This document shows, piece after piece, positions 1 to 32,599 of a stretch of 64,000 nt of DNA (position 1 is its first letter; the number at the start of each line of letters is the position of its first letter). Under the pieces are notes generated by a model. That model did not search any database. It saw only the letters and a program-made list of their open reading frames with translations, and was not told the DNA's origin. Location of the stretch: assembly GCA_025965315.1 (NCBI GenBank), contig JAOPXD010000029.1:1-64000 (forward strand), in the 5' to 3' direction. The position numbers and the translations under genes were made by a program. Origin of the DNA: Marmoricola sp. (GTDB taxonomy: Bacteria > Actinomycetota > Actinomycetes > Propionibacteriales > Nocardioidaceae).

Positions 1-1846
<1,846 letters not shown>

Positions 1847-1850
<4 letters not shown>

Positions 1851-2497
1851 GCCGCGGCTCCCTGGGTAAACAACGGATGGGCCGGTCGGTAGAAGCGATT
1901 GGCTTGAGTCTCGGTCGGTTGTCGCGGGTGGCTACAGCGCGTAGTCGGGTCGGTGAGGCCGACCTGCGCCAAGCGCACCTCGACAGCTCGCACTGAGGCG
2001 CCGAACAGGTGCGCCAGCTTGGCTGGCGACTGGACACCGCTGTACCAAGCTCGTTGTAACTGGACCTTCGGCACGAGAACGCAGCCCGCGAAGTAGTCGG
2101 CCGCTGCCTCACCTTGGTCCCAGCCGGACTGCTGATGACCGTCCTGATAGAGCTGGTCGTACTTCGAGTGGTCAACGATGTGTTTGTACTCGTGCATAAG
2201 AGTGAACCGCTGGCGTGCGACCGGCTCGTTCTCGTTCAGAACAATCAGCCAATGGTCACCGTTCCAGTAGCTCAGCCCGGACGTCGGAATAGAGCGCTGC
2301 GTAACGCGAATGCGAGGTAGCTCGACGACGACAGAGGCCTGCAGGGCCGGCGCATCGCTCGCGGTCAGGCGGCGAAAGAGGTTGGCCTGGCGCTCTGCGA
2401 CTCGTCGGGCCTCGGCGGATGTCAAAGCGTGCTCCGGGGTTACGGCACGCAAGGCCGCCAGGACGCTCGTTCGGTGTATCTGTTGTTCGATGGTCAT
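1847..2497 (-). CDS. immA: ImmA/IrrE-family metallo-endopeptidase
   Basis: This is a 216-residue protein with the zinc-protease motif HEYKH (HExxH) in LMHEYKHIVDH near residue 102 and a downstream acidic segment (GEAAADYFAGCVLVP) that supplies the third ligand in this family. ImmA proteases cleave XRE repressors such as ImmR to induce integrative elements. The gene lies 27 bp after such a repressor, and its stop overlaps the integrase start, so the three genes are probably co-transcribed. The C-terminal 50 residues are not conserved in a way I recognise. Family assignment is firm; the induction role is inferred from ICEBs1-type systems. Confidence 0.88.
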
Positions 2498-2524: not shown

Positions 2525-2905
2525 CTACTGCTCGTCCTCGCCGTTCCTCGGACCAGATGTGTCCTGGATGCCGAGGTCGCGCTGGATGATGGCTTCAATC
2601 TCGTTGCGTGCCTCGGCCGATAGCTGCCCGTCGTACTTAGTACGTAGGTAGGGGCGTATGTTCGGCAGGCCGCGCGGCGTCGGGTAGCCGGCTAAGACGT
2701 AGAGGTCGGCAACGGGTACGCCCAGCGTCTTGGCAATCTGTCCGAGGACTTCGGCCCGCGGGCTACTCACCTGGCCAGCCTCCAGGCGCACAATCTGGGC
2801 CATGTTGACGTCAACCGCGGCCGCCAGGGCTCGAGTGCTCAGCCCCAGTTCTTGGCGGCGTGCACGGAGGTAGTCGCCGAGGTCCTTTGCTTGCGTGTCG
2901 TCCAT
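2525..2905 (-). CDS. immR: XRE-family repressor, ImmR-like
   Basis: This 126-residue protein starts at ATG 2905, chosen because GGAG stands five bases upstream; the track's longer start (2974) has no such site. An N-terminal XRE helix-turn-helix occupies about residues 10-65 (LGLSTRALAAAVDVNMAQIVRLEAG). A short acidic C-terminal half follows. It precedes immA and the integrase on the same strand. A good -10 (TACAAT, 2931-2936 on the minus strand) and a palindrome over the -35 region suggest autoregulation. It likely holds the element quiescent until ImmA cleaves it. Confidence 0.85.
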   Translation of the reverse strand: MDDTQAKDLGDYLRARRQELGLSTRALAAAVDVNMAQIVRLEAGQVSSPRAEVLGQIAKTLGVPVADLYVLAGYPTPRGLPNIRPYLRTKYDGQLSAEARNEIEAIIQRDLGIQDTSGPRNGEDEQ

Positions 2906-2930: not shown

Positions 2931-2960
2931 ATTGTACCTGAAGCGATGCGAGAACGCATC
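2931..2960 (-). promoter_or_regulatory. Promoter and palindromic operator of the immR-immA-int operon
   Basis: On the minus strand a -10 hexamer TACAAT (2931-2936) lies about 25 bases before the immR start codon. The 16-bp palindrome GATGCG-AGAA-CGCATC (2945-2960, plus-strand reading) covers the expected -35 position. The same half-sites occur twice before the conjugation operon at 6728-6778. This arrangement fits repression by the ImmR-like protein, although binding is inferred. Confidence 0.65.
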
Positions 2961-2992
2961 ACTTCGTTGTGCATTCCACACCGCTCAGGCTG

Positions 2993-3367
2993 TTACATCT
3001 GCGGTCGAGGTTCATCGGGGTCTTGCTCGGTGCGCCACTGCTCGACAGTGTTACTAGCCTCGGACAACGGGAGCCATTCCGGGCGGTCGAATGGCGGAAC
3101 GCGGTCCCTGATTCCGTGTTCGTAGCTCAGCCACGACCGGGCGCGCTCTATCTCCGGTATCGACATGCCCGCGATGATGCCGCGAGCCGGCAGACGCGGC
3201 ATGACCAGCGTCTGGTCGACACAATCGACCAGCACCACGCAGTTCTCGCAGATGGCCTTCGCGACCTTCGCTCGGAACGGTTCGAGCCGGGTGTTGCAGT
3301 CGAAGTATTTGTCCACGACGAAGGCGGGGAGGTCGGCGCAGTTGGCCCCCTCAAGCGAGGACCTCAT
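2993..3367 (-). CDS. WhiB-like (Wbl) iron-sulfur protein
   Basis: This 124-residue protein has four cysteines spaced as in Wbl proteins: Cys10, Cys40, Cys43 and Cys49 (C-x29-C-x2-C-x5-C, with CENCVVLVDC readable). They are followed by GIIAGMS, which corresponds to the G[VI]WGG turn of the family, here with the tryptophan lost. Wbl proteins bind a 4Fe-4S cluster and modulate transcription through the primary sigma factor. The start overlaps the stop of the replication-relaxation gene (ATGA), so it is the last gene of the conjugation operon. An extra cysteine at 24 and the divergent turn make it an atypical member. It may link element transfer to redox state. Confidence 0.8.
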   Translation of the reverse strand: MRSSLEGANCADLPAFVVDKYFDCNTRLEPFRAKVAKAICENCVVLVDCVDQTLVMPRLPARGIIAGMSIPEIERARSWLSYEHGIRDRVPPFDRPEWLPLSEASNTVEQWRTEQDPDEPRPQM

Positions 3368-4356
3368 GCGTCGCCTCGCAGCCAGTCACCCCCTTCGCCT
3401 CGCAGGCACGACAACAGCTCAGCATCGGTCGTCACGCGGTAGTTGGCCGCCTTGAGATGGCGGGCGTTGGTAATGCGCTCGGCAAGCTTGCTGGCCCGCC
3501 GCTCGTCCGGCACCACCCACACGATGAGTGGGAAGACACCGTGCTCGGCCTCGGCCTGGCCGCTGCGGCGGTAAGCCTCGTAGCGGTCGCATTGCTTCAG
3601 TACAGTCGGCAGACTTTCGGTTCCCCTATCGACCTCGATGAACCAATGCTCTTCAAAGTCAGCGTCGTCGGGAGTCACGGTGATGGCGAACAGGTCGGGC
3701 TTGAGGACTTCGGTTCCGCCGAAACTGGTGAAGCGGCGCCAGGCTCGCGGCTCAATCACGCACTGCAAGACAGAGATACTGCCGCCGGCTCGTTCGGCCT
3801 GAACCAGCGCCAAGCGGACGTCTGCAATGGCGAGGTAGTGCGCGATAAAGCGCTCGCCGGGTTCGCGGACCGTGCCGGTGGCACCACGGCCGCTGCGCAG
3901 GTTGCGGAGCCGCTGACCAACGGATGTCAGCATCCAAGTGCTCGACGTCGAGCCCGCGTGAAGGCCACCGATATGTCGCCGCGTGCGCTCGATGAGCTGG
4001 TCTCGCTCGAGGCGCGCCAGGACCCGGCGGGCGACTCTTGCTCCTGAACCTTCTGAACTGTGGTCATAGAAGCAAAAGGATTCGATGTGCTTGCCCGTCA
4101 GGAAACGGTGCTCGGCTACCAGGTCGAGAACAGCGACGTCGCGAGGGCTGAGCCGAGAAAGGACATCGGTGAGCCCAGCTTGCCCGGGACCCCGGGCCCG
4201 GCGTTTGCGAACTGACGAGGACGGATTAGGAACAGACAGTCTTTCGTGTCCGCTAAATCGCTCGACGGGCTGCTGACCTGCGTCTCCGCCTTCGCGGTGG
4301 TCGTTTCGGCTGGTACGGCGACCGGTACAGCTGGAGTCAGGTCGGGTGCCGCTCAT
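3364..4356 (-). CDS. Replication-relaxation family protein
   Basis: This 330-residue protein has a basic, low-complexity N-terminus (about 1-60), a winged-helix-like segment (LSPRDVAVLDLVAEHRFLT...) and a C-terminal region with FIEVDRGTESLPTVLKQ, the hallmark of the actinobacterial Replic_Relax family (PF13814). Members are found on conjugative plasmids and integrative elements and are thought to act in plasmid relaxation or replication; biochemistry is limited. It overlaps both neighbours by 4 nt, downstream of the coupling ATPase and upstream of the WhiB-like gene, so the genes form one transfer operon. Confidence 0.8.
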   Translation of the reverse strand: MSGTRPDSSCTGRRTSRNDHREGGDAGQQPVERFSGHERLSVPNPSSSVRKRRARGPGQAGLTDVLSRLSPRDVAVLDLVAEHRFLTGKHIESFCFYDHSSEGSGARVARRVLARLERDQLIERTRRHIGGLHAGSTSSTWMLTSVGQRLRNLRSGRGATGTVREPGERFIAHYLAIADVRLALVQAERAGGSISVLQCVIEPRAWRRFTSFGGTEVLKPDLFAITVTPDDADFEEHWFIEVDRGTESLPTVLKQCDRYEAYRRSGQAEAEHGVFPLIVWVVPDERRASKLAERITNARHLKAANYRVTTDAELLSCLRGEGGDWLRGDA

Positions 4357-6515
4357 ACTTGCCTCCGGCGGCGTCCCGTTGTGCCGAGTTGGTCAGCCGG
4401 GGCCAAACCGTCGACCAGACTCTGGAAACCACGTTCAACCTCGTCAAGCGACCGACCGTAGCGTTCACGACTCATCCGGCGCAGCGCTTCTGGGTCCGAA
4501 ATGGCGGGGCTTGGCGGGAGAGTGCGGCCTGATGCGTAGGGATTGACCTTTCCGTTCGCGAACAGGCTGGCGTAGACCTCGTACTGCCCAAGCGACGTCA
4601 GGTCCTCGGGTGAAATCTCGGGGTGGCCCTTGCTGAATGTGACGGCGTCCTCATGACTCATCTGAAAAAGCACTCTGCTGCGGCAGTTGGCCAAAACGGC
4701 ACTCTTGAGCTCAGTGCCATATTGGGCGGCGAACTGATTTCCGAGCGTCCAAGAAGCGCCGAATCCCCTCGATTGGGCCAGCGCTTCGCCGATGTCGCCC
4801 AGGTGGAGGTAGTCCTGGGCCTCGTCAATGGTCACCATGATGGGGTGACGACGTTCTTGAGGGATGGCGGCGCGGGATTGGATGGCCTGCCACAACTGAG
4901 CGACCACCAACGACCCGAGCAACTTGCTGGTCTCGTTCCCGATGACGCCCCGGCGCAGCGGCACCAGCAAAATCTTGCGTTCGGTCAGCACTTGGCGCAT
5001 ATCGAATCGTGGCTCGACTTGGCCGACCACGGCTCGCAGACCTGGGTCGAGGAACCACTGGCGAAGACGATTCATGACCGGCGCGATGGCGGCACTGCGT
5101 TCCGCTTCCGACAACTTCTCGTACCAAGCCCAAAACGGGCCGAGCGCGATTGGGTCGTTGATGTGCTGGGTGAGCGACCGGCGAAAGCCGGTGTTGGTCA
5201 GTAGCAGCGGCAACATGACCAGCGAGGTGTTCGGGTGACGCGCCAATGTGAGGAGTGAACAGTTGAGGATGTCGTGCATCCGCGGGCCCCAAGCATCGGC
5301 ACCGTACATCGCCCTGAATACGGCGAGGACGCCATCGGCCACAACCTCAGCTGATTGACCCGGCGCGACATGAACGACGTTGAGCCCGACTGGTCTGGTC
5401 TCAGTTGGGTCTAGGACGACCACATCCCTGTGACGGTGTTCGGGGACGTGCTGCAGGACGTCTGCGAGGACGAGGTCACCTTTCGGCTCTATGACGCATA
5501 CCGCGCGGCCGTCAGCAATGTCTTGAGCTATGAGCCGTCCGAGCAAGGTCGACTTCCCGGCGTTCGTGGGAGATGTTACGAGCAGGTGCTGCAACGCGTT
5601 TCGCGCCGACAAACGAAGCGGCACGTCAACTCGTCCTGGCGCAGTACTGACCGCCACGACGCGGCCGGAGGTCGTACCGGGCGCCGGCTGTAGCAGCCGC
5701 GGGTGCAGCGGAGGCTGACCGGGCATGGCGGCATCGCCGACAGGCCACGCCGTCGCGACAGCCAAGACCTCGGCGATGTTCAGGCGCAATGGCCAGCCCC
5801 ATGGCGGCCGGGCTCCGACGTTGATACGGGTCGAAGACTCGCGGCGAAGCTTTAGCTGAACCCCAGGGCCCTCGTTCGTCCGCAGGGCACTCAGGACGTC
5901 GTGAGCAAGGTTACGACGGCGTGATGGCGACGGGGCGCTCACTCCGATGCGCACTGCGCAGGCGAAGCCATGGTCCGATGTCTTGGTTCGCAGCGCGGCA
6001 CGCTTCTCTCCATCCACGGGCCCACCGTTGCCGCGCCACAGCACAGCCCACCATGGGGCGGCGACCGACGACGGGCTGTTGTTGGGCACGGACAACGGCA
6101 CGCGCCCCGGACCAAGGACCACTTGCAGGACGAGGCACTCGTCCTCACCGGCTCCTGCGAGTGCTGTGTGAATGACCCGGGCACTATCTTCGATGCCAGC
6201 CGTCCGGAAGCTGCGGTGACGCGTTGTTGCCTTGACCTGACGAGCCACCGCGACCGGCGCGCGCTGACGGGCGCTGGTCACGACGGTTCCGGCGGTCAGT
6301 GTTGTGAGGAGGTTCGCTACCGCCGAAGCCTGGGGCGGCGGGCAGCCCACCCAGAACGTGACGACCCCGTTGCTACCGCGCGTTTCAAAGACCAACCGAG
6401 TTCCGCGCTGGTCACTCGATAGCCGTCGCAAAAGTGCCAAGCACGCCGTCTCGTCGAGGGGACGATGCCAGTGAATTTGGCGCCAGACCATGCGAGGGTC
6501 CGTCTGAGCACTCAT
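4353..6515 (-). CDS. Type IV secretion coupling-type ATPase (VirD4/TcpA/TraD-like)
   Basis: This 720-residue protein has a Walker A motif TNAGKSTLL at about 316-325, followed by CVIEPKGDLV as in coupling proteins, and a Walker B IMVTIDEAQDYL at about 557-568. The region with the QSRGFGASWTLGNQFAAQ segment matches the TraM-recognition/TraD C-terminal fold. The 300-residue N-terminal extension lacks clear membrane helices, unlike classical VirD4. Such ATPases bring DNA to a mating channel. No VirB4, lytic transglycosylase or relaxase gene was found in the window, so transfer may rely on a helper or on an unrecognised relaxase. Its start overlaps the stop of the small gene upstream. Confidence 0.85.
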   Translation of the reverse strand: MSAQTDPRMVWRQIHWHRPLDETACLALLRRLSSDQRGTRLVFETRGSNGVVTFWVGCPPPQASAVANLLTTLTAGTVVTSARQRAPVAVARQVKATTRHRSFRTAGIEDSARVIHTALAGAGEDECLVLQVVLGPGRVPLSVPNNSPSSVAAPWWAVLWRGNGGPVDGEKRAALRTKTSDHGFACAVRIGVSAPSPSRRRNLAHDVLSALRTNEGPGVQLKLRRESSTRINVGARPPWGWPLRLNIAEVLAVATAWPVGDAAMPGQPPLHPRLLQPAPGTTSGRVVAVSTAPGRVDVPLRLSARNALQHLLVTSPTNAGKSTLLGRLIAQDIADGRAVCVIEPKGDLVLADVLQHVPEHRHRDVVVLDPTETRPVGLNVVHVAPGQSAEVVADGVLAVFRAMYGADAWGPRMHDILNCSLLTLARHPNTSLVMLPLLLTNTGFRRSLTQHINDPIALGPFWAWYEKLSEAERSAAIAPVMNRLRQWFLDPGLRAVVGQVEPRFDMRQVLTERKILLVPLRRGVIGNETSKLLGSLVVAQLWQAIQSRAAIPQERRHPIMVTIDEAQDYLHLGDIGEALAQSRGFGASWTLGNQFAAQYGTELKSAVLANCRSRVLFQMSHEDAVTFSKGHPEISPEDLTSLGQYEVYASLFANGKVNPYASGRTLPPSPAISDPEALRRMSRERYGRSLDEVERGFQSLVDGLAPADQLGTTGRRRRQV

Positions 6516-6703
6516 TTGGAGCCCTCTGCCGTGCTCTTCTTCTCGCTTGCCTCAGCGTCGGCCTCCATCTGTGCCTGAGCCAGTGCGATGGCTGCGCGCG
6601 ACAGCCGACGCAGGTCAACCGGGTCGCGCTGAACGCTGCGGACCGAGATGCGGTGCGGGCGCCGAGAACTGCGACCGCGTGAGTACTTGTACGTACGTGC
6701 CAT
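6512..6703 (-). CDS. Small basic hypothetical protein, first gene of the transfer operon
   Basis: The ORF track begins this frame at 6784, but ATG 6703 (MARTYKYSRG) is preferred: AAGGAAG lies upstream and two operator-like palindromes occupy the region before it. The 63-residue product is very basic at the N-terminus (RTYKYSRGRSSRRPHRIS) and acidic and alanine-rich at the C-terminus. I recognise no family. The stop overlaps the coupling-ATPase start by 4 nt. A DNA-binding accessory role is possible but unsupported beyond charge and position. Confidence 0.65.
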   Translation of the reverse strand: MARTYKYSRGRSSRRPHRISVRSVQRDPVDLRRLSRAAIALAQAQMEADAEASEKKSTAEGSK

Positions 6704-6727
6704 TGATACCCCCTTCCTTGGTTGTCT

Positions 6728-6743
6728 GATGCACTTTCGCATC
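6728..6743. promoter_or_regulatory. Operator-like palindrome 1 before the transfer operon
   Basis: GATGCA-CTTT-CGCATC is an imperfect copy of the palindrome in the immR promoter (one mismatch in the left half). It lies 25-40 bases upstream of the small basic gene. Its centre is 35 bp from that of the second copy. Confidence 0.6.
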
Positions 6744-6762
6744 ATTGAACCTTTGAGTATGT

Positions 6763-6778
6763 GATGCGAATTCGCATC
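6763..6778. promoter_or_regulatory. Operator-like palindrome 2 before the transfer operon
   Basis: GATGCGAATTCGCATC is a perfect 16-bp palindrome with the same half-sites as the one at 2945-2960. Together with the copy at 6728-6743 it brackets the probable promoter of the transfer operon, as expected for joint control by the ImmR-like repressor. An oriT-related role is the alternative. Confidence 0.65.
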
Positions 6779-6869
6779 AGTCAACAGGCAGGTGCGCCCG
6801 TCCCGCTGGCGACCGGAACAAGGTCAACAGAGGTGGGACGGACACGATTTCGTTGTCGATTCCACGTCG

Positions 6870-8674: not shown

Positions 8675-11296
8675 ATGAGTGGCGACGTTGTGCGAGGCGA
8701 CTTGGCCAAGGAGATTGGTAGGGCAATTCGCAGTGGTATGGACGTGGCATTCACGACGGCCCACCTGAACGCGGACAACTCTGTCTACGGCCCGCTCCTG
8801 GCTTCAATCTTGGCGCAAGTCTTTCCGCGTACGTGGTCGAAGAACCAGAACGAAGCTTTTCAGACTGCCATGCGGCTTGCTGCTGAAGCCTTGCCTGGGG
8901 AGTCTGAGTACCAGTTCGCTGATGGCCGCGTAGACCGTCACTTGCGCCGACACGTCACCTACCGCGAGCTCGCGCAGCTGATGACGGCTAGTGGTGTGGA
9001 CGACTTCAATCCGCGGAGGTGGAAGGGTGTCCTGGAAGCGGGCCGAACGCTTATGTTCGGTACTACCGGCGACGGTCGGCTTGAATCTGCGAAGGAGTCC
9101 GAGTTTCGCCGGAATCGTGAGCGGGTGTTCCAGGCAATGTCGGAGGAACTGGCCGCGATGCCCCAGTTGGAGCCGAAGCCTGGAGAACGCGGCATCGGAA
9201 ACTATTCCAACGAGGTGCGTCGGTCCGACATCGAAGACAGAGTGCTCTCGTTTATCAATGATGCTGGCGGGCCAATCGCGCTCGTGGGGGAGTCTGGTAA
9301 CGGTAAGTCTTTCGTAGCTCGTCAGTTGATTCGCGAGGCCTTCAGTGCCCATCGGGTCGCTGAAGTCCACGAAGGACGTGGCGACGAGTCGCTATTCGCG
9401 ACTGACTTGTCGGGTCTCCTGCGGCGCGCGGGATGGGACCAACCTCACCAGTCAGTTGCAGACAAGGTCGACGCCGTACGTGAGGTACTTAAGAATCCGG
9501 CCGCTTTTGACCTTGTGCTCTTCGACAACGTCGACCTATGGGTACTTGAGGCAGTGTTGCCCGATGCCCAAGTCCCCATCCTCATCACGTCGCGTGAGAG
9601 GCTCGGCGACCTAGTTGCTGAAGATGTCATCGTTCCTGAGTTCACCAAGTCTCAGGCTCTCGAGGCTTCGCGCTATCTCCTCCCTGGCCGTGAAGACATC
9701 GAACTCGAAGCGTTGTGTTCGGACGTTGGAAATCGGCCGGTAGTGATTCACATCGCCTGTCACCTCATTTCTGAGGAGCACCTCACGGTGGAGAACTTCA
9801 GGCGGAGCATGGCAGAGAACTCAGCAAAAGTTCTGCGTTCGATGGCAGCGGAGCTGGGCAGACACCACGACCATTTCGGCAACCCAATCAACGGGAACAT
9901 CGTCGGCGTGTATCAGCACACGCTGAATCACATATTTGACGCAGAGAGTGATGGCCGAGGCGGCGACCCGCCCGTAGCAGACGTACTCGATGCGATTTTG
10001 TGGCTAACCGAGTCTGCGGATATTGAATTTATATATGCACTCGCAAGCGACACACTGACGGAGGCTGAGTTCCAACGTGTCCGTGGCGCGGTGAGCGTTC
10101 TTGCTCGCTTTGGCCTGATTACCCACCGCGGTACCTCCATTGAAATCAACACGCTGACTCTTGACGTCCTGCGGCATTTGCAAGGAGACAGAGCTCCCGG
10201 AACGGTGGGGCGTACTCTTAGTCGCTTGAGACAAGCGGCTGTGACTTTTCGGGACCGTGACGCGGACTGGAGAACGTTGACTGCACACGAGCGAGCGGCT
10301 GCATATCGAACTGGCTTCTTTCTTGCGATAGTCCACGTCGATGGAGTTTACGAGTCCATGTTCCCGAACCTCCCAGGGCGCGTGTATCCGCTCCTGAACA
10401 CGATGGTGGCGTATCAAGATTCCGCCTTCTTCGAACCGGACGACGAGCGCCGCTACGGAGTCTTGACTGCCGAGATATCGACGGGAGAGTTGCGCTGGCT
10501 CTGGACCTCCACGAGGTCGAAGGTCGGAGTTCTTGACGGTGACCAAGACGGCGGAATACTCGCGATGGCCTGGTTGGCGCACTGTACTCAGCGGTCGGAC
10601 TACCCAGACGCGTTTGAAAGCTCGGGACACGTTGGAGAGATGTTCCTCGGTCTCACTCGACGAGCACAAACCCAATTTCGCCACGTCTCAATGTCGGTCG
10701 TGCCAGACCCGATAGCGGCCCACTATGGTTCCGAGTGTTGGACCCTGTGCGGAGAATGGCAGGTTCCAAGCATCGACTACGAATTACGTCTTTGCACGCG
10801 ATGTGCTGATTTGGTTCGTCCAGAGAGACGGCTTCTGCGGCTCCGTCTAGGCGCACGACTCATATCGCTAGAAAAGATTGCGGAGAACTACGGTTCTCCC
10901 TGGAATATGCGCCTAATGTTGATGAACGTGCTCTACTATGTTATCGATTCGGAAACTGGGTTCCTGGGCTTTTCGAGATTCTTGGAAGAGATGGATGAGC
11001 AAGAAGTCGCGATGACGCGTGACTTGTATCTGTTCTCCTTGGCTTTAAGCGATGCGGTTCGCCGGATGCGAATGGGTGAGATTGAAGAACTTAGGGTTTT
11101 GGCGGAGTGGGTTGCGGGGAGAATAATTGCCGACCCAATTCCCGCTATGAATCGTGACGTCGCGCTGTTCATTCTCGACGGAATAGCAGAATTGTGCACG
11201 GCGGCTAACCTGTTGGAGAGCGCGGATAACGCGCGAGCGTCCCAGCGCGTCATCGAATCAATGCCGAATGTGGCGCCCGCAGATGGGACGGCATAG
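8675..11296 (+). CDS. STAND/NB-ARC-like P-loop NTPase, candidate defence protein
   Basis: This 873-residue protein has an N-terminal helical region without a recognised effector (1-190). Its P-loop NTPase has Walker A GESGNGKSF at about 205-213, Walker B FDLVLFDNVD at about 278-287 and a sensor-like strand ILITSRE at about 302-308, the NB-ARC/STAND order. A long helical C-terminal half follows, with a possible zinc ribbon (CWTLC ... CTRCADL, about 690-720). STAND proteins act as oligomerising switches in immunity, often against phage proteins. Neighbours are an unknown 178-residue protein upstream and a two-helix membrane protein downstream, which could be the killing effector. The defence role is inferred from architecture and from position in a mobile element. 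Confidence 0.75.
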   Translation: MSGDVVRGDLAKEIGRAIRSGMDVAFTTAHLNADNSVYGPLLASILAQVFPRTWSKNQNEAFQTAMRLAAEALPGESEYQFADGRVDRHLRRHVTYRELAQLMTASGVDDFNPRRWKGVLEAGRTLMFGTTGDGRLESAKESEFRRNRERVFQAMSEELAAMPQLEPKPGERGIGNYSNEVRRSDIEDRVLSFINDAGGPIALVGESGNGKSFVARQLIREAFSAHRVAEVHEGRGDESLFATDLSGLLRRAGWDQPHQSVADKVDAVREVLKNPAAFDLVLFDNVDLWVLEAVLPDAQVPILITSRERLGDLVAEDVIVPEFTKSQALEASRYLLPGREDIELEALCSDVGNRPVVIHIACHLISEEHLTVENFRRSMAENSAKVLRSMAAELGRHHDHFGNPINGNIVGVYQHTLNHIFDAESDGRGGDPPVADVLDAILWLTESADIEFIYALASDTLTEAEFQRVRGAVSVLARFGLITHRGTSIEINTLTLDVLRHLQGDRAPGTVGRTLSRLRQAAVTFRDRDADWRTLTAHERAAAYRTGFFLAIVHVDGVYESMFPNLPGRVYPLLNTMVAYQDSAFFEPDDERRYGVLTAEISTGELRWLWTSTRSKVGVLDGDQDGGILAMAWLAHCTQRSDYPDAFESSGHVGEMFLGLTRRAQTQFRHVSMSVVPDPIAAHYGSECWTLCGEWQVPSIDYELRLCTRCADLVRPERRLLRLRLGARLISLEKIAENYGSPWNMRLMLMNVLYYVIDSETGFLGFSRFLEEMDEQEVAMTRDLYLFSLALSDAVRRMRMGEIEELRVLAEWVAGRIIADPIPAMNRDVALFILDGIAELCTAANLLESADNARASQRVIESMPNVAPADGTA

Positions 11297-11348
11297 ATTG
11301 TCCGTATTCTGAACCTGAATTTCTCGCACTTGTTCCAAATTGATTGCG

Positions 11349-11361
11349 ACAATGATATTGT
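11349..11361. promoter_or_regulatory. Small inverted repeat in an AT-rich promoter region
   Basis: ACAAT-GAT-ATTGT forms a 5-bp inverted repeat in the AT-rich 74 bases between the NTPase stop and GTG 11371. It may be a promoter element or operator for the membrane protein gene. The evidence is only sequence symmetry. Confidence 0.3.
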
Positions 11362-11370
11362 GTTTAGTAA

Positions 11371-12519
11371 GTGAATCACGATTCTTCAGACAGTCGAATA
11401 TTTAAACTAAAGACCTCCTTGGTCTCAGTCCTCATGGTCTTCATCGGCCTGGCGTTCATGCTTTTCTCCAAGTACGCGGCCACTGTCTCCAGACTCCACT
11501 GGACGACCTATTGGCCCTTCTTCGAACTCGGCTCAACGCTCTTCGTCACTGGTGCCCTGGTTAACGTTTGGGACTACGTGGATGGCCGCGACAAGGAACA
11601 CCGTGAGAACGACCGCATCCGTCGGCTGCTCAAGGAAGCTGCGCCCGAGTTCCGTGATGCTGTCGTCGAGGGTTTCGCGGTCTCACCTGAGGACCTAGCT
11701 CGCGTTGCTACTCCCGAGCTGCTCGACAGCATCGCGACGAACGTGCTGAGCCTGAGACTCGGTGACCGGCAGTTCGCCAGCGAGTTGTATGCCGACCTCC
11801 GCGACCTAGCGATTCGTTCACCGGAGAGATGGCACAACGTGCAGGTACGGGTACGTCTCTCTACTGCAGTAGAGAGGAGCGCCAAAGGCGCTCCTCTGTT
11901 CGACGTGCTCGTTGAGTGGGAGTACACAACAATCCCCACGCATCCGATTCAGCGCTTCGCCTGTGTCTCGGACCGTGATGACTTCCAGGAACTTGTCAGT
12001 GATGTGCCGGCCACCCTGACCTGGCTCATGACCGACCGCGATGGCCTCGATGCTCGCGAGCAGAAGAACTACGAGTTACTGGCGTTCTCGGTGGACGGCG
12101 AAGAGCGTTCCATCCGACGTGCGAAGCGAGCCTCAGGCCAGGTGTACAGCGCGTCTATTGGCGAGGAAGCCGTGCGGGAGGCCAAGCCCGTACGGATTCG
12201 TCAGCTCTATCGAGTCGTCACGCCGCAGAGCGGACACCGGCTCTACTTCGAGGTTGGCCAGCCAACCCGCGGCTTCTCGCTCGAGGTCGACTACACCGAC
12301 ACAGACATCGCGCACATGAGTGTTACTGAACTGGTGAGCAGCAGCCACCCATCGCAAGTGTCTTCAATGCCAAGGCAGGTCGACGCCCGCATCTTGGGTA
12401 TCGACCTGCCCGGTTGGCTCTTGCCGAAGTCCGGCTTCGCCTTTGTGTGGACGCTCAGGAGCGAGCGCTCCGGAGGGTCGTCAGGCGAGAACGAACTCGT
12501 TCCAGCCAAGTCGGCCTGA
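11371..12519 (+). CDS. Two-helix membrane protein with large cytoplasmic domain, unknown
   Basis: This 382-residue protein starts at GTG 11371. Two hydrophobic helices lie at about 16-33 (SVLMVFIGLAFMLFSKY) and 47-66 (FFELGSTLFVTGALVNVW), followed by a soluble domain of about 300 residues with alternating strands and helices. I do not recognise the domain. Its layout (membrane hairpin plus cytoplasmic domain) is common for effectors in bacterial conflict systems, and it follows the STAND-type NTPase by 74 bp. A link to that gene is plausible but unproved. Confidence 0.65.
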   Translation: MNHDSSDSRIFKLKTSLVSVLMVFIGLAFMLFSKYAATVSRLHWTTYWPFFELGSTLFVTGALVNVWDYVDGRDKEHRENDRIRRLLKEAAPEFRDAVVEGFAVSPEDLARVATPELLDSIATNVLSLRLGDRQFASELYADLRDLAIRSPERWHNVQVRVRLSTAVERSAKGAPLFDVLVEWEYTTIPTHPIQRFACVSDRDDFQELVSDVPATLTWLMTDRDGLDAREQKNYELLAFSVDGEERSIRRAKRASGQVYSASIGEEAVREAKPVRIRQLYRVVTPQSGHRLYFEVGQPTRGFSLEVDYTDTDIAHMSVTELVSSSHPSQVSSMPRQVDARILGIDLPGWLLPKSGFAFVWTLRSERSGGSSGENELVPAKSA

Positions 12520-12604
12520 TGTGAACCTGCGTGAAGTCGCCACCGCTCATGGGTCTGTCTCCTTAAGTCGTTGCGTGGACCAGTCGCCAAGCCAACTGAA
12601 AATA

Positions 12605-12618
12605 GCATGTATACATGC
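12605..12618. promoter_or_regulatory. 14-bp palindrome overlapping the XRE start codon
   Basis: GCATGTATACATGC is a perfect palindrome whose third base begins ATG 12607. An operator over the start codon would suit autoregulation of the XRE gene, perhaps of a leaderless message. Confidence 0.45.
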
Positions 12619-12939
12619 GCATGTGACGGCACCTTTGCGACAACGCTCGGACCTGTGTCTGCGCGCCGAGCTTCTGAGGAGCCGTGGCGCGCCTATGCCC
12701 GCGAGCTCGGTGTTCGACTGCATCGAGAGCGGATTCAGCGCGGGCTAACGCAGGAGCGGCTCGCCGTAGCCGCCGGGATTTCGACGTTTACCTATCGCAA
12801 GTTGGAGAAGGGCGAGTCAAACCCAGGCACGCCGGCTAACCCACGTCTTCACACGCTTGTTGCGCTGGCCGAGGTCATGGATGTGGACATCTCGGCCCTG
12901 TTACCGCCCGCCCCGGGCGGCATAGCCATCGGGCGGTAG
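12607..12939 (+). CDS. XRE-family transcriptional regulator
   Basis: Translation from ATG 12607 gives 110 residues (the track prefers GTG 12571). A helix-turn-helix of the XRE type spans about residues 35-95 (RIQRGLTQERLAVAAGISTFTYRKLEKGE), ending in a short Pro/Gly tail. A variable loop (SNPGTPANPRLHT) interrupts the fourth helix, as in a subgroup of actinobacterial XRE proteins. It stands alone between two unknown genes. Its target is unknown, but the palindrome over its start codon suggests self-control. Confidence 0.75.
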   Translation: MYTCACDGTFATTLGPVSARRASEEPWRAYARELGVRLHRERIQRGLTQERLAVAAGISTFTYRKLEKGESNPGTPANPRLHTLVALAEVMDVDISALLPPAPGGIAIGR

Positions 12940-13269
12940 GCAGCCGGAGCCCGCGCCACATGTTGGGCGAGCGTCCCGCTTGTCCGCACGAAGCCATATG
13001 CATAAGGCGCGGGAGTGAACTTACAAACGGCGTGTTTGCGGGAGGCCCCGCGGCTGCTGTGTAACTCTCGCTAGGCAGTCGGCATGTTGATTCACGCTCT
13101 TCCCGGGGCCTCGGCGTGTTGAACCGTCGACGCTGCGCGACGCATTGGTCGGTTGCGTTCGTGGAGTCACATGCGATTTGGTGGCGCGCGAACTGAGTCA
13201 GATTGGCAAGGTATGAGCCCCGTTTGCATCCCTCCGCTGGCGTGTCAGTACGTAGTGGTTCACGTACAC
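12940..13269. other. No gene recognised
   Basis: This 330-base stretch lies between the XRE gene and the DUF4760-like gene. Open frames exist on both strands, but none has a credible start or protein-like composition. The downstream gene may begin earlier (ATG 13213 or 13171) and take up part of it. Confidence 0.4.
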
Positions 13270-13893
13270 ATGTCGCCAACTCCTGTCCACGTTTCCACTG
13301 GTCACCTGTGGGTCACGGTGCTCGCCGCTGTTGCGACATCCGCCAGCGCCTTCTTCGCGCTCCTTGGCGTACATGCCGCGCGGAAGAGCGCGGAGACGGG
13401 TAAGGCGGCGCTGGAGAACACCCTTGCAATCCAGGAGCAAGCGCGGGAGTCGCAGCGCAAGACCGCGACCATCGACTACTGGCGAAACACGTACGGTGAC
13501 AGGGTCCGGCTGCGCGCCGCCCTTGGCTACGAACACGGCGTGTCGTTCACGGAACGTGTGCGGAAGCTGACTGAGTTCTACCAAGGCAACTCGCTAAGAG
13601 AGATTCCGCCACGTCGACGCCCTCTCAACCGCGACGACCGCAACCTGCGTGAATACCTCAGCATCTTCGAGACGCTGGGTGCGGGCGTGTGTGAAGACGC
13701 CTTCGACCTAGAGGTTCTCTACGGACTCGATGGCCCACGAATCATTGCTCTCGGAGAGTGCGTAGATGACTACCTCAAAGCCCGGCGACCACACGTTCGC
13801 GAACTGCAAGAAGCTACCTTCTACGGGTATTTCGCGAAGCTTGTTGCTCGGCTCCGGGCGCACGCAGCAGCGAGGGCCACAACAGGCAGTTGA
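13270..13893 (+). CDS. DUF4760-like membrane-anchored protein
   Basis: From ATG 13270 the product is 207 residues (upstream in-frame starts give up to 246). An N-terminal helix (LWVTVLAAVATSASAFFALLGVHAA) is followed by a coiled-coil-like stretch and then a domain with DYWRNTYGDRVRLRAA and LREYLSIFETLGAGVCEDAFDLEVLYGLDG, which resembles DUF4760. Such proteins have unknown function and are frequent in accessory regions. The start is uncertain because no candidate has a clear ribosome-binding site. Family assignment is moderate. Confidence 0.6.
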   Translation: MSPTPVHVSTGHLWVTVLAAVATSASAFFALLGVHAARKSAETGKAALENTLAIQEQARESQRKTATIDYWRNTYGDRVRLRAALGYEHGVSFTERVRKLTEFYQGNSLREIPPRRRPLNRDDRNLREYLSIFETLGAGVCEDAFDLEVLYGLDGPRIIALGECVDDYLKARRPHVRELQEATFYGYFAKLVARLRAHAAARATTGS

Positions 13894-13919
13894 GGCGACG
13901 ACAGGTCGCTCCGCCGAGG

Positions 13920-14048
13920 CTACTCCCGCTTAGTGACCCGGAACGGGACCGCGTCGATGCCTCCTTCGGGCATGGGCGGAAGCTGCAACGTCCCGCCGGC
14001 TTCGACTGGCGCGACGTCGGCGACTGCTGGGGACTGAGGCTGGCTCAC
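13920..14048 (-). CDS. Possible 42-residue protein, too short for the ORF track
   Basis: On the minus strand GTG 14048 opens MSQPQSPAVADVAP and runs to TAG 13920-13922, with a protein-like proline- and glycine-rich sequence (LQLPPMPEGGIDAVPFRV). It fills the otherwise empty gap between the DUF4760-like gene and the gene at 14138. It may also be the relic of a longer gene, since an in-frame stop lies a short way upstream. No ribosome-binding site is obvious. Confidence 0.25.
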   Translation of the reverse strand: MSQPQSPAVADVAPVEAGGTLQLPPMPEGGIDAVPFRVTKRE

Positions 14049-14137
14049 AAAGACATCCAACCAAGGCGGCCCGTGCGTCGCGTCAAGTTACGAGTGAGGG
14101 CGCACACGTTCGCTCGAACACATGTTCTAATGGCGCT

Positions 14138-14398
14138 ATGACGAAGGCTCCGCCGGCTGGACCCCGAGTACATCCGCTGGAGACTCCCGTGGTCGAACCA
14201 AAGGTGCGCCACGTTTGGTTACACGGTCAACCCCACAGCGGGTTGCCGGGCAAGCCGGCCTTTCTGCTCGGTTGGGTCCGTGAACCTACGCGCGGGGAGT
14301 GGTATGGCCAGGTAGTCACGGTCGACGAGGTGAGCACAACGTTTCAAATCCATTGGGCGCATGCCGACATGATTAGTGACCAGGAGCGAGTCACGTAG
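14138..14398 (+). CDS. Small hypothetical protein before the restriction-like cassette
   Basis: This 86-residue ORF starts at ATG 14138. The second half looks like a small beta-barrel domain (KPAFLLGWVREPTRGEWYGQVVTVDE...TFQIHWAHADMI). I do not recognise the family. It ends 101 bp before the methyltransferase start and could be a regulatory or accessory gene of that cassette. Confidence 0.6.
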   Translation: MTKAPPAGPRVHPLETPVVEPKVRHVWLHGQPHSGLPGKPAFLLGWVREPTRGEWYGQVVTVDEVSTTFQIHWAHADMISDQERVT

Positions 14399-14499
14399 GA
14401 GGTCCACAGGCACGCGTGGACCGATGTGTGTGCCCCAGACCCGGGATGGGTACCTCGCGCCTACTGCTTTGTGTCGGTCGCTCCCCATAGAATCCACAC

Positions 14500-16188
14500 G
14501 TGCTCACCGGGGACTCCGCAGAACTACGCAAAGCGCGTGGTGCGTTTTTCACCCCCTACGCGATTGCGGAGTATCTAGCGGACTGGGCGCTCCGCGGCGA
14601 CGGCAACGAAGGCATGATTCTCGACCCGACTTGCGGTGAGGGAGTCTTCCTACTTGCGGCAGCCGACCGCTCTGTGGCGGACGAGCGTCTCCCGCCGGCT
14701 CGGTTGTTTGGTGTCGACATTCATACGGACTCCTTGGACGAAACCGCTCGACTCCTGCGGACTGCAGGGCACGAGCAGCCAGCCACACTTCTGACTGGAA
14801 ACTTCTTCGAAGAGCCGCATCCGGGCCAGCTTGGTGCTCGCATTCCATACGTGGACGCAGTCGTCGGAAATCCGCCGTTCGTTCGCTACCACGAGCACCG
14901 TGGCGAGGCGCGTCGTCGGGCTTCGGCAGCCGCGCTCGCCCAAGGCGTCCGCTTGTCAGGTCTTGCATCGTCGTGGGCCGCGCTACTGGTTCATGCCTCC
15001 AGCTTCCTGAAGCCAGATGGCCGTATCGCCATGGTTGTCCCGGCGGAGTTGCTCTCGGTTGGGTACGCGGAGCCCATCCGTCAATGGCTCCGCCGACGCT
15101 TCAAGGCAGTGCACCTCGTCTTGTTCGACCAGCTCCAGTTCGCTGACGCAGAGGAGCAAGTAGTGCTCCTTGTTGCTCGAGGAACTGGTGGCTGTAGTGC
15201 CTTCACCCTCCACGAAGTCAGCGACGCTGACGAGCTGATGAGACTGCACATCTTCGACTCGGATGCATTCGCTCCGAGTGATAGCGGCAAGTGGACCGAG
15301 CTACTCGTGCCTGATGACGTCCGGGGCATCCTGCGACGTTCGATGACCGAAGAGTTCACAACGCTCTCCAAGTACGGGCGAGTTGAACTCGGGACGGTCA
15401 CGGGCGCCAATAACTTCTTCACCCTTACTGAGGCGACTCGGCAGGAGTTCAACCTGCTACCTGACAAACACGTCATCAAGACGCTGCCACCCGGAAGTCG
15501 TCACCTGGCTGGGCTGCACTTCACAGCTGGTCAGTGGGAGCAACTCAAGCTCGACGGCCAGCGAGTTTGGATGCTCAGCCCAACCGTTCAGAAGCCCTCA
15601 CCCGGTAGCGGACTTCAGCGATACATCGACCTCGGCGTTGCCAACGAAGTCGACCGCGGCTATAAGTGCTCGATTCGCACGCCATGGTGGCGTGCGCCCG
15701 CACAGCCACCACCGGACATGTTCTTCACCTACATGAGTCACGTTTGCCCACGCCTCGTGAGCAACGACGCGGGCACGACGTTTGTGAATTCACTGCATGG
15801 CCTGACGCTTAACTCAGACTTGAGTGAAGACGAGCGCACGGCGCTGCCATTCGTCATGTTCAGCACAATCAGCATGCTGAACGCAGAGCTTGTGGGTCGT
15901 GCCTACGGCGGCGGCATCCTCAAGATGGAGCCGCGCGAAGCAGACGTATTGGCTCTCCCGCGTCGCGACCACCTCCTGCGCACCTGGGCTGAACTGCGCG
16001 GTCGACGACACGAGCTGGACCAACTCGTGCGAGCGAAGAGTTGGCAGCAAGTCACCGAAATCGTCGACGAAGCGTTGCTAACCAATACGCTCATGGTCAC
16101 CAGTGACGACTTGCGCAAGCTCCGAGCCGCGCTTCGGCGTCAACGAGCACGCAGGCAACGTCGGGAGGGACATGGCAGCGCCGACTGA
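14500..16188 (+). CDS. N6-adenine DNA methyltransferase (TaqI/Eco57I-like)
   Basis: This 562-residue protein starts at GTG 14500, with a -10-like TAGAAT about 8-13 bases upstream that suggests a leaderless message. Motif X is GAFFTPYAIAEYL (about 14-26), motif I ILDPTCGEGVFLLAA (about 45-59) and catalytic motif IV GNPPFVRYH (about 127-135). The order is that of gamma-class N6-adenine methyltransferases. The C-terminal half would carry target recognition. No nuclease domain is fused to it. The putative nuclease gene overlaps its last 17 bases. The enzyme should protect host DNA for the cassette. Confidence 0.88.
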   Translation: MLTGDSAELRKARGAFFTPYAIAEYLADWALRGDGNEGMILDPTCGEGVFLLAAADRSVADERLPPARLFGVDIHTDSLDETARLLRTAGHEQPATLLTGNFFEEPHPGQLGARIPYVDAVVGNPPFVRYHEHRGEARRRASAAALAQGVRLSGLASSWAALLVHASSFLKPDGRIAMVVPAELLSVGYAEPIRQWLRRRFKAVHLVLFDQLQFADAEEQVVLLVARGTGGCSAFTLHEVSDADELMRLHIFDSDAFAPSDSGKWTELLVPDDVRGILRRSMTEEFTTLSKYGRVELGTVTGANNFFTLTEATRQEFNLLPDKHVIKTLPPGSRHLAGLHFTAGQWEQLKLDGQRVWMLSPTVQKPSPGSGLQRYIDLGVANEVDRGYKCSIRTPWWRAPAQPPPDMFFTYMSHVCPRLVSNDAGTTFVNSLHGLTLNSDLSEDERTALPFVMFSTISMLNAELVGRAYGGGILKMEPREADVLALPRRDHLLRTWAELRGRRHELDQLVRAKSWQQVTEIVDEALLTNTLMVTSDDLRKLRAALRRQRARRQRREGHGSAD

Positions 16189-17122
16189 GGACGGCTTCGC
16201 CCAGTTTGATGGGCTGCTGAGCGCTGCAGACACATCCCACAGTCCGTGGACCGACAGTACCTACATTCCAAATCTCGACCTGCTCCAGCAGATGCTGAGC
16301 CTGCCAATTTCTCAGGGCGACAAGCAGGAGTCGGGTCGCCCTGCCAAGGCCTTCGACGCTTGGGTTGCGCATGAGCTGCGGCGTTCAGGATTTCCAGCGG
16401 ACGCTGTGTTTCCTCGGATGCGGCGACCGCGGGTTCTGTTTGAGGGGCTGGGCTCGCTCGAAGCCAAAATTGAGGAGCTCGCCGCTGCCCTCGAGTCTGC
16501 CGAGCCAGGTGACGAGAAGGTCAAGCCGGCTCCGTTGCGCCGCGCGATTCGAGCCGTCACTGGTCACAACGTTGGGCAGTCGACGGCCTACATCCTTGGT
16601 GACTTTTACGCGAAGCAGATTGATGTTGGTCTGTCGACCTGGGAACGAGGGCCGGACATCCTCATCTCGACTAAGACGATGTTCTCGGCCTTCGGCAAGA
16701 ACCTGAAGAATCGCCATGAGGAAGCGGTCGGTGAGGTTAGTAGCTTGCGCCGCCGACACCCGATGGCGGCGATGGGCTACTGCTACCTCGTCCGTGAAGA
16801 CATTGTTCGCCAGCCGAATGCCTACGCGACCCTTTACGACATCCTTCACAGGCTCCGGCGCCCGGGAGAGGCTTTCGATGCGACACTGCTTCTTGCGGCC
16901 AACTGGGATGACAACGACCCTTCAGCTGGCGTGCAGTTGCTTGACGAGCCAGCCGCTGAGCTGTCGGCCTCGCGCTTCTTCAAGGACATAGTCGAAGCGG
17001 TCATGGACCGCTCACCAAACCGGATTCACCAGGAGGTGCGCCGCCGTCGCGGCGGTACGCCGTTCGAGCGTTTGGACATCTCGTGGACCGACGACATCGA
17101 ACTGGGCGAGGATGTCGAATGA
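16172..17122 (+). CDS. Putative restriction endonuclease partner of the methyltransferase
   Basis: ATG 16172 (MAAPTEDGF) is preferred over the track start 16103 because GGGAGGG precedes it. The product is 316 residues. A central segment, ERGPDILISTKTMFSAF (about 160-176), has the D-x(n)-[ES]xK look of a PD-(D/E)XK nuclease core, followed by a helical RHEEAVGEVSSLRRRHP stretch and a strand GYCYLVRE. The acidic residue expected before the lysine is Ser, so the catalytic assignment is tentative. It overlaps the methyltransferase by 17 nt, the usual layout of a type II restriction-modification pair. Confidence 0.65.
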   Translation: MAAPTEDGFAQFDGLLSAADTSHSPWTDSTYIPNLDLLQQMLSLPISQGDKQESGRPAKAFDAWVAHELRRSGFPADAVFPRMRRPRVLFEGLGSLEAKIEELAAALESAEPGDEKVKPAPLRRAIRAVTGHNVGQSTAYILGDFYAKQIDVGLSTWERGPDILISTKTMFSAFGKNLKNRHEEAVGEVSSLRRRHPMAAMGYCYLVREDIVRQPNAYATLYDILHRLRRPGEAFDATLLLAANWDDNDPSAGVQLLDEPAAELSASRFFKDIVEAVMDRSPNRIHQEVRRRRGGTPFERLDISWTDDIELGEDVE

Positions 17123-17188
17123 CGGCGACTGTATCGCTGACTCTGGAGACGAATACGCTCGGCGACCCCGGGACGGAGGTTTAGCGAC

Positions 17189-18346
17189 GTGGAAGCGCGC
17201 CCCTCGGACGTTGACGTTGAGGTGATGGTCAATCGCATCGCGAGCGGTGAGCTTGACCTGCAGCCAGAGTTTCAGCGCGGCGAGGTTTGGGACATCAAGC
17301 GGCGGCAGAGGCTCATCGACACGTTGCTCCGCGAGTGGTACGTGCCGGCCGTTCATATTGTCCAAGATGACGACCGCCGTTCGTCGGTGCTGGACGGCCA
17401 GCAGCGGCTTGTCGCTATTCGCGACTTCTTCGCTGGAGAGTTCCCCGTAGATGGCTTCGTAGAGCCGCTCGACCCAAAGATTCAGGACCTGCACGGCAAG
17501 TATTTCGGTGACCTCCCACAGGAAGTCACCCGTGCTCTGAAGACCTATCCACTGGCCGTGGTCTACCTACGTGAGTACACGCCCGGGGAGCCCAATGAGT
17601 TGTTCTTCCGATTGAATCAGTCGTACAACCTAACGCCCCCGGAGAAGCGAAATGCCCTGCATGGCCCGGCACGAAATCAGGTCCGCGACCTTGTCGAAGA
17701 CTTGCAGTCTCATGGACTGCTGAATCGCGACCTCATTGGTTTTTCGAATCAACGCCTGGCCTACGACGATGTCGTGGCGCGCGCCTGCGTAGCTATCGAG
17801 CAAGGGACGCTGCGTAAGCACATTAACAACACGACTGTTGAGCAGTACTACCGCAGTATGGACGACTTCTCAGGCACCACTGTCGAGGGCATTCGGATAG
17901 CTGGCCGCGAGCTCTACGACCAAGTCATGGGTGCAGGTCGAGTGAAGTTCAACAAGGGGACCCTACAAACTTGGCTGTTGTACTGCCATTGGGCCTCGGA
18001 GTTAACGGGACCACTACCGAGCAGTCTGTTAGAGCGCTTTGAGATTGACCGGCAGCATGTGAAGCGACGTGAGTTCGACCAAGACACTTCTCAACGACAG
18101 CGGCTTCTGTCGGTGGTCGGCGTGTACGACGACCGTGCGTCCTATCGTGTAACTGACGTGAGTTCGGTTGTTGCGCGCGACCTCGCCATCCATCTGTATT
18201 CGGTGGCAACGTTCGGCACTGAAGGCCGCAGACGCTCGCTCGAACTCGTCGACCGTCTCGAACACGACCGACGAGCAGACCCCACGACCTTGATGTTCGA
18301 CTACATGGAGCAAGTGCAGTGGGGCGAACCGCTGGATTCGGATTAA
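17189..18346 (+). CDS. DUF262 (ParB/GmrS-like) protein
   Basis: This 385-residue protein starts at GTG 17189, with GGAGG about ten bases upstream. The DUF262 signature is clear: LQPEFQRGEVWDIKRRQRLIDTLL (about 28-51) and VLDGQQRL (about 70-77), the nucleotide-binding DGQQR motif of the ParB/Srx-like fold. DUF262 proteins include the GmrS half of the modification-dependent enzyme GmrSD and parts of several defence systems. No DUF1524 HNH nuclease domain is visible here. It sits between the putative nuclease and the ATPase-TOPRIM gene, and a degenerate copy of its N-terminus follows at 19741. Confidence 0.82.
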   Translation: MEARPSDVDVEVMVNRIASGELDLQPEFQRGEVWDIKRRQRLIDTLLREWYVPAVHIVQDDDRRSSVLDGQQRLVAIRDFFAGEFPVDGFVEPLDPKIQDLHGKYFGDLPQEVTRALKTYPLAVVYLREYTPGEPNELFFRLNQSYNLTPPEKRNALHGPARNQVRDLVEDLQSHGLLNRDLIGFSNQRLAYDDVVARACVAIEQGTLRKHINNTTVEQYYRSMDDFSGTTVEGIRIAGRELYDQVMGAGRVKFNKGTLQTWLLYCHWASELTGPLPSSLLERFEIDRQHVKRREFDQDTSQRQRLLSVVGVYDDRASYRVTDVSSVVARDLAIHLYSVATFGTEGRRRSLELVDRLEHDRRADPTTLMFDYMEQVQWGEPLDSD

Positions 18347-18349
18347 TCC

Positions 18350-19678: not shown

Positions 19679-19740
19679 ACGTTCAAGATTTATTGGGTTG
19701 CGAGCGACATCCTGCGCTGTTCGAAGTTCGCTCAGGCTCA

Positions 19741-19944
19741 ATGACTGGAAAGCCCGACGAAGTTCCGTCCAAGCGCTTGCTTGCTTGGATACCGCCCTAT
19801 GAGCTCTGGGACGTCAAGCGGCGACACCGGCTCATCGCGATGCGGTTCATGGCAGTGCCTTTCGTTAGAGAAGTCAAAAACTACGCCCGACCCCCGACAA
19901 GTGAGATGCGCCGCGTCGGGTGGTCATGCGAGCGGGTGAGCTGA
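19741..19944 (+). pseudogene. DUF262 remnant
   Basis: The frame beginning at ATG 19741 contains PPYELWDVKRRHRLIAMRF, which aligns with GEVWDIKRRQRLIDTLL of the intact DUF262 gene at 17189. The similarity extends to the DNA (GGGAC-TCAAGCGGCG). The rest of the domain, including DGQQR, is missing. It is therefore a decayed fragment, not a functional DUF262 protein. Its stop overlaps the start of the next small gene (TGATG), so it may be translated and pass ribosomes to that gene. Confidence 0.6.
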
Positions 19945-20201
19945 TGGACAACTCGCCCGCTGACGGAGTACTACTTGAACCCAGGAAGTTGGCGGACCAG
20001 AAGGAGGCCAACGTGTTGCTCAGGACACTTGCGACCATTCGTGAATCCAGCGGAGCACAACCCACCGTGCGATACGACGAGACCCAGAAGATGAGTTACG
20101 TTCAGGAAGGTGGCGCGTGGGTCCCAAGCTTTGAGTCACATGCGTTCAGTGGGACAAAAAAGGCGGACCTTGAGACGGGCGAGGACCAAAAGGGTCAATG
20201 A
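19944..20201 (+). CDS. Small protein, candidate substrate peptide of the ATP-grasp ligase
   Basis: ATG 19944 is preceded by GGTGAG. The 85-residue product begins MDNSPADGVLLEPRKLAD, has a helical leader-like part, and ends in a Ser/Thr/Lys- and Asp/Glu-rich tail (FSGTKKADLETGEDQKGQ). Its stop overlaps the ATP-grasp start by 4 nt. A short gene with a hydroxyl/Lys- and acid-rich tail directly before a MvdD/TgmB-like ATP-grasp gene matches graspetide precursors, whose side chains are joined by ester or amide bonds. I see no repeated core motif, so this role is inferred from context and composition. Confidence 0.6.
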   Translation: MDNSPADGVLLEPRKLADQKEANVLLRTLATIRESSGAQPTVRYDETQKMSYVQEGGAWVPSFESHAFSGTKKADLETGEDQKGQ

Positions 20202-32159: not shown

Positions 32160-32599
32160 TTCCATCCCGGCCGCGGCCGCATTTGCACGCCAACACTAAG
32201 AAGATGGCTGCGGACGTGCTTCGCACTCACCTTGTATCTATCTGCCAGGGACTGCAGTGATGCACCTGCCTCATAGCGGCGGGCAGCGTCTTCGACTTGA
32301 GAAGCACCGAGTCCCTGGTTGCGAATCGTGACGCCAGCTTCACGGAGCGTTCGCAGCACGGTTCCTTTGCCCAGGTTGTAGTCCTGCATGAGTTGGTTGC
32401 TGGAAGTGCCGGCTTCGTAGTCGGCAACCATCTGGGCTCGTACCTCAGGAGTGAACCGTTGGTCCAGCTTGTGACGAATCGGTCCTTCTGTAGCTACTTC
32501 TAGGAGTCGAACCTGACTCTGACTAACTGCCCGGATGGCTCGACGGAGGTCATCCCAAGCGCTTGCTTGTTTCCTATAGCGTCCTATGAGCTCCACCAA
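32147..32599 (-). CDS. HTH protein beginning inside attR: likely severed C-terminal part of the serine integrase
   Basis: This 150-residue frame holds two helix-turn-helix units (RFTPEVRAQMVADYEAGTSS...GKGTVLRTLREAGVTIRN and QVEDAARRYEAGASLQSLADRYKVSAKHVRSHL), as found at or near serine recombinases. It has no ATG start: the first codons, TTG GTG GAG CT, lie in the att core, and the frame continues upstream into the chromosome. The integrase reads GTG GTG GAG CT in the same phase at its own att core (118-127). Excision would therefore fuse the two in frame into a protein of about 726 residues. In the integrated state a chance GGAGG in the terminator could still start translation at TTG. Confidence 0.65.
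   Translation of the reverse strand: MVELIGRYRKQASAWDDLRRAIRAVSQSQVRLLEVATEGPIRHKLDQRFTPEVRAQMVADYEAGTSSNQLMQDYNLGKGTVLRTLREAGVTIRNQGLGASQVEDAARRYEAGASLQSLADRYKVSAKHVRSHLLSVGVQMRPRPGWNYDA

Follow-up and report, generated by a model that had tools for sequence, protein, structure and literature searches.

Predicted control of two operons by one ImmR-like immunity repressor in an actinobacterial integrative element

Known immunity systems and the element in the window

The closest described counterpart of the locus analysed here is ICEBs1 of Bacillus subtilis, in which a small XRE repressor, ImmR, is encoded next to an M78 protease, ImmA, and the operon continues with the integrase gene (PMC8960796, PMC6957869, PMC9956884). 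All three genes, immR, immA and int, are expressed jointly from PimmR (PMC6957869, PMC8960796). ImmR acts at its own promoter and at the transfer promoter; the two promoters diverge, six ImmR binding sites lie in their regulatory regions, and besides a tyrosine integrase the element has Xis. Among actinobacteria, the AICEs are integrated mobile elements, some of which carry serine integrases (PMC3218068). AICEs of the pSAM2 type transfer via an FtsK/TraB-type protein, and pSAM2 itself is under pra/KorSA control. In temperate phages, as exemplified by the lambdoid cI and mycobacteriophage immunity repressors, the repressor and its operators diverge together, resulting in element-specific immunity.

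The window, that is, the whole stretch of DNA analysed here, covers the initial 64 kb of a contig 83 kb long, one of 217 in the assembly. Judged from its end repeats, an integrative element of 32.5 kb is inserted there in a tRNA-Ala(CGC) gene. The contig starts inside this gene, a whole copy of which lies on neighbouring contig C200 with an overlap of 127 bp; two tandem copies of the tRNA-Ala 3' end occur here, and it is at this repeat that the contig is broken (window 1-127 and C200). The second copy of the 3' end stops at 127, right ahead of the integrase gene (which begins at 162), and its last 10 bp recur at 32589-32598, followed by the same 30-bp terminator-like sequence as is found after the tRNA gene, so the element spans about 118-32598. 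A direct repeat at a tRNA gene hence marks both ends, one of which has the integrase gene beside it. The ends and the genes of the module are as follows.

118..127, no strand: attL core AGCTCCACCA, end of the second tRNA-Ala 3' copy
162..1850, minus: large serine integrase (Pfam Resolvase, Recombinase, Zn_ribbon_recom); start overlaps the immA end by 4 bp
1847..2497, minus: ImmA-like M78/IrrE metallopeptidase with HEYKH motif (Pfam PF06114, Peptidase_M78, 8e-20)
2525..2905, minus: ImmR-like XRE repressor, 126 aa, recognition helix NMAQIVRLEAG (Pfam HTH_3 4.8e-11, HTH_31)
2993..3367, minus: WhiB-like protein (PF02467, E 3.8e-4, 21.4 bits, below the cut-off of 23.6)
3364..4356, minus: Replic_Relax (replication-relaxation) protein (PF13814, 1.7e-40)
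4353..6515, minus: TrwB/TraD-like coupling ATPase (PF10412, 1.1e-8), with relatives across Actinobacteria
6512..6703, minus: 63-aa ORF heading the transfer operon; profile matches in 35 of 53 loci
32589..32598, no strand: attR core AGCTCCACCA, a 10-bp core, then a 30-bp terminator-like sequence as after the tRNA

The module is thus encoded entirely on the minus strand in the order 63-aa ORF, ATPase, Replic_Relax, WhiB-like, ImmR-like, ImmA-like and serine integrase, and the ORF calls and Pfam matches agree with the gene identities originally proposed for the integrase, immunity and ATPase operons, the WhiB-like match being below threshold. The immR gene, encoding the XRE/HTH repressor, and the following immA gene, encoding the M78 metallopeptidase, are 27 bp apart; int follows on the same strand with a 4-bp overlap, the gene order is kept in relatives, and immR-immA-int is predicted to form one operon. 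The original prediction that this layout differs from that of ICEBs1, with the ICEBs1 integrase outside the immunity operon, has to be withdrawn given that int is co-expressed with immR and immA in ICEBs1 and the gene order is the same (PMC6957869, PMC8960796). Accordingly, the gene order is not a novelty. What is new compared with ICEBs1 are the co-directional promoters, the serine integrase and the tandem operator: both operons are on the minus strand, and their promoters, instead of diverging from one common regulatory region, are located 3.8 kb apart, with one site at the first and two at the second. No excision factor, Rap-Phr pair or RapI-like activator was recognised in the element.

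The element resembles AICEs in being an integrated actinobacterial mobile element with a serine integrase, as found in some of them; however, its ATPase matches the Pfam families TrwB_AAD_bind and T4SS-DNA_transf rather than FtsK_SpoIIIE, is combined with Replic_Relax, and is accompanied by ImmR/ImmA in contrast to the pra/KorSA control of pSAM2. It thus departs from AICEs in the lack of an FtsK/SpoIIIE-type transfer protein. The main ORFs between 118 and 32598 show no Pfam match to mating-pore genes (VirB4 etc.) or to a recognised relaxase, the genes that define a self-transmissible ICE, and the name transfer operon, accordingly, derives from the ATPase and Replic_Relax families. The coupling-ATPase/Replic_Relax module takes the place of the phage genes found in temperate phages, and in the comparison of repressors the immunity repressor of PDB 8bny is a weak sequence match. 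A literature search of partial coverage found no published description of this element group.

The cargo genes at 8675-25011 include those for a STAND-like NTPase, an Eco57I-type methyltransferase, a GmrSD_N/NsnA-like protein, an AAA ATPase and a DUF4062 protein, which probably serve anti-phage defence; a second XRE (HTH_3) protein is also encoded in the cargo (12571-12939). Near the right end there is a gene for a 2085-aa RHS/YD-repeat-like secreted protein with a weak DUF6531 match (25226-31483), and a minus-strand ORF with helix-turn-helix-like repeats (32147-32599) that starts inside attR and may be what remains of a recombinase-like or excision-related gene.

Palindromic sites and promoters

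The palindrome GATGCG-N4-CGCATC is present with 0 mismatches at 2945-2960 (GATGCGAGAACGCATC) and at 6763-6778 (GATGCGAATTCGCATC), and with 1 mismatch at 6728-6743 (GATGCACTTTCGCATC). All three copies named in the original prediction are therefore found, its statement that the motif occurs twice before the transfer operon being slightly overstated. The looser form GATGCRNNNNYGCATC (GATGCRN4YGCATC) has 5 matches in the 4.07-Mb assembly, 3 of them within the window and one of the other two on contig C112. Taken from the window sequence alone, regardless of placement and relatives, the triplet is suggestive: when 60 windows of 64 kb were simulated with an order-1 Markov model, 14 contained three members of some 6-4-6 palindrome family inside 5 kb. 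Because such families are not rare, the case has to rest on position and on relatives.

A blind promoter scan of 8.2 kb yielded two sigma-70-like promoters, one of which is TTGACT-17-CATACT at 6784-6756, before the ATPase operon; its 17-bp spacer is occupied by one of the palindromes, denoted O1. With the immR start set at 2905, where relatives align, another palindrome, OR, is located 8 bp from the TACAAT -10 element and hence covers the -35 region of the immR promoter. The predicted elements are listed below.

2931..2936, minus: -10 of the immR-immA-int promoter, TACAAT (window sequence; register kept in relatives)
2945..2960, minus: operator OR, reading GATGCGTTCTCGCATC on this strand; covers the immR -35 region
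6728..6743, minus: operator O2, GATGCGAAAGTGCATC, 35 bp downstream of O1, about +6 to +21
6756..6761, minus: -10 of the transfer-operon promoter, CATACT (blind promoter scan)
6763..6778, minus: operator O1, GATGCGAATTCGCATC, filling the -35/-10 spacer
6779..6784, minus: -35 of the transfer-operon promoter, TTGACT (blind promoter scan)

This geometry recurs in relatives. In 23 elements, O1 directly follows the -35 element or starts within 2 bp of it and ends a few bases before the -10 element, and in most elements the immR -10 is about 8 bp downstream of OR; an operator over the immR -35 region is listed for 19 elements including that of the window. The distance between O1 and O2 is 34-38 bp in 21 elements and 39-40 bp in a few more, and this variation provides no fixed helical phase that would back looping or strict cooperativity. 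By position, occupancy of the sites should repress both promoters.

We put the probability that the two key operons of the 32.5-kb element are governed by one immunity repressor at roughly 0.85. In the proposed circuit, an ImmR-like dimer at O1, between the -35 and -10 elements, would exclude RNA polymerase, and O2 just downstream would add a second block, keeping the ATPase/relaxation operon tightly off. ImmR at OR would cover the -35 element of immR-immA-int, such that repressor, protease and integrase would be autoregulated and held at a low steady level. On a signal, by analogy with ICEBs1, ImmA would cleave ImmR and both promoters would open, after which the integrase and the transfer functions would rise; induction may proceed via ImmA cleavage of ImmR or via DNA damage. 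Since there is one site at the immR promoter versus two at the transfer promoter, different set points are expected, which would probably leave the immunity promoter leaky and self-limiting and keep the transfer promoter tightly shut. The proposal that the two operons respond together thus holds insofar as the operator set is common to both, and is too simple with respect to the unequal numbers of sites.

It is conceivable, albeit less likely, that only the transfer promoter is truly controlled and that autoregulation of immR is too weak to keep immR-immA-int from being in effect constitutive, as from PimmR of ICEBs1. The immR-immA-int operon of ICEBs1 has been described as constitutive (PMC6957869), the quiet state requires that repressor be made, and the single site at this promoter would fit weak control as well; on the other hand, occlusion is expected from the location of OR over the -35 region in all 19 elements mentioned above.

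Operators in relatives and the ImmR recognition helix

Relatives were collected with the ATPase as query against 298 genomes from the order, 395 from the class and 346 from the family, and 53 loci were annotated with profiles; plasmid and phage collections yielded distant ATPases only. In actinobacterial relatives with ATPases 34-51% identical to that of the window, the two-plus-one layout recurs with palindromes that differ between elements and match within each element. For the 24 loci that possess ATPase, ImmR and ImmA, the best palindromic 16-mer shared between the regions upstream of immR and of the ATPase gene was scored, and the true pairing was not equalled in any of 20,000 permutations; in 21 distinct elements the T-site pair score (two like palindromes 33-38 bp apart) exceeded that of all decoys from the same locus. 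In particular, the operators are of GTTGCA-N4-TGCAAC types in L040-L042, TTGAATTGATTCAA in L044, GTCC-N8-GGAC in L119 and GTACACAAATGTGTAC in L122, with one site on each side in the latter. Three loci (L111, L113 and L115) have an OR-like site only, and in five others that encode ImmR (L050, L053, L054, L114 and L116) no clear matching sites were found.

Across 19 elements, the more alike the ImmR recognition helices, the more alike the operators (rho 0.48, Mantel p = 0.0002), and the partial correlation given the rest of ImmR is 0.46; the operator lists behind these values are curated by hand and partly by eye, and the elements are related and not fully independent. The values for the rest of ImmR (0.13), ImmA (0.09) and the ATPase (0.05) are far lower, and the near-zero correlation with the ATPase argues against shared descent as the cause. 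When a window is slid along ImmR, the correlation with the operator peaks at MAQIVRLEAG, and GATGCG half-sites are found both in the element analysed here and in the distant L103 (MAG palsa_607), which have the helix M(A/S)QIVRLE in common. Together, the matching of sites within elements and the tracking of the helix indicate that one ImmR-like repressor very probably reads OR, O1 and O2. The comparative sequence data thus show the three palindromes as one predicted, element-specific operator set that varies with the ImmR-like recognition helix, in line with the original prediction of one ImmR-read set at the repressor-protease-integrase and ATPase/relaxation/WhiB operons, which the permutation, the pair score and the helix correlation bear out. 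The presence of sites at the repressor's own promoter and at the transfer promoter, predicted here by sequence comparison, is a feature shared with ICEBs1, and the joint divergence of repressor and operators is shared with the specificity groups of temperate phages.

That the palindromes are read by another regulator, such as the second HTH_3 protein of the cargo, the WhiB-like protein or a host factor, ImmR being merely nearby, is improbable given that the operator sequence follows the ImmR helix over 19 elements, that a WhiB-like gene is present in only 3 of the 53 annotated loci, and that a host factor is not expected to yield a different operator in each element. A role of the repeats as transcription terminators or RNA hairpins rather than operators is still harder to sustain: on the plus strand, the repeat at 2945-2960 does score like a terminator stem, but this reading of it was rejected. 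The genes on both sides of it are all on the minus strand, O1 lies within a promoter spacer ahead of the transcript start, and each stem has only 6 bp around an N4 and changes along with the ImmR helix. Finally, chance recurrence of a short palindrome in three copies across 4 kb, for all the frequency of such families in the simulated windows, is next to negligible, being already contradicted by the more than 20 other elements that repeat the layout with different sequences; on this comparison, the placement and conservation of the palindromes are not accidental.

A second conserved box and the reach of the regulatory code

In most relatives, both promoters are preceded by a family-wide box, GTTGTGGAATnnACAA / GTTGTGGAAT, that is conserved where the operators drift. 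In most of them the box starts 28-29 bp before O1 and 20-22 bp before OR, and its distance to the -10 element is about equal at the two promoters. In the window, the in-register box of the transfer promoter is lost and the flanking TTCCGGTCG is kept; two copies are present, of which the one at immR is intact.

2966..2982, minus: upstream box at the immR promoter, GGTGTGGAATGCACAAC, 14/15 to GTTGTGGAATnnACAAC; starts 22 bp before OR
6852..6868, minus: degenerate box copy, GACGTGGAATCGACAAC; 90 bp from O1, the usual distance being 28

A search of 257 Gb of genomes with the box + ATTGAC pattern, which uses no protein information, returned 27 places, of which 19 are located 240-560 bp upstream of this ATPase family, five precede a gene for a ribbon-helix-helix-like protein in Microbacteriaceae and in an Actinomycetes MAG, and three are apparent chance matches. 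The box-bearing ribbon-helix-helix loci (L136, L138, L146, L148 and L159) look unrelated to the element family. With one mismatch allowed, a search for a host regulon in this genome recovered only the window's own copy of the box.

No extra DNA-binding gene between Replic_Relax and immR is common to the relatives: many of them have methyltransferase-like genes in this interval, three have WhiB and some have nothing, which argues against a common element-encoded reader of the box. Several of the loci L042-L054 encode a DNA methyltransferase-like protein in the position of the WhiB-like gene of the window. PafBC/RecA-NDp was considered as a candidate reader. The box might, tentatively, be bound by an activator that is conserved in actinobacteria and turns on mobile elements, a proposal we regard as possible and far from assured; if it is true, both promoters would integrate two inputs, the removal of ImmR and a host signal.

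Across the element family, changes in the repressor go along with changes in its target sites, which points to the binding partner ahead of experiment. The three palindromes thus lead to a regulatory code that can be put to the test in a widespread group of integrative elements of actinobacteria, and the analysis also exposes a second conserved promoter box, which the pattern search located almost exclusively at such loci. From the ImmR recognition helix, one would predict the operator, the elements that share immunity and the location of both key promoters.
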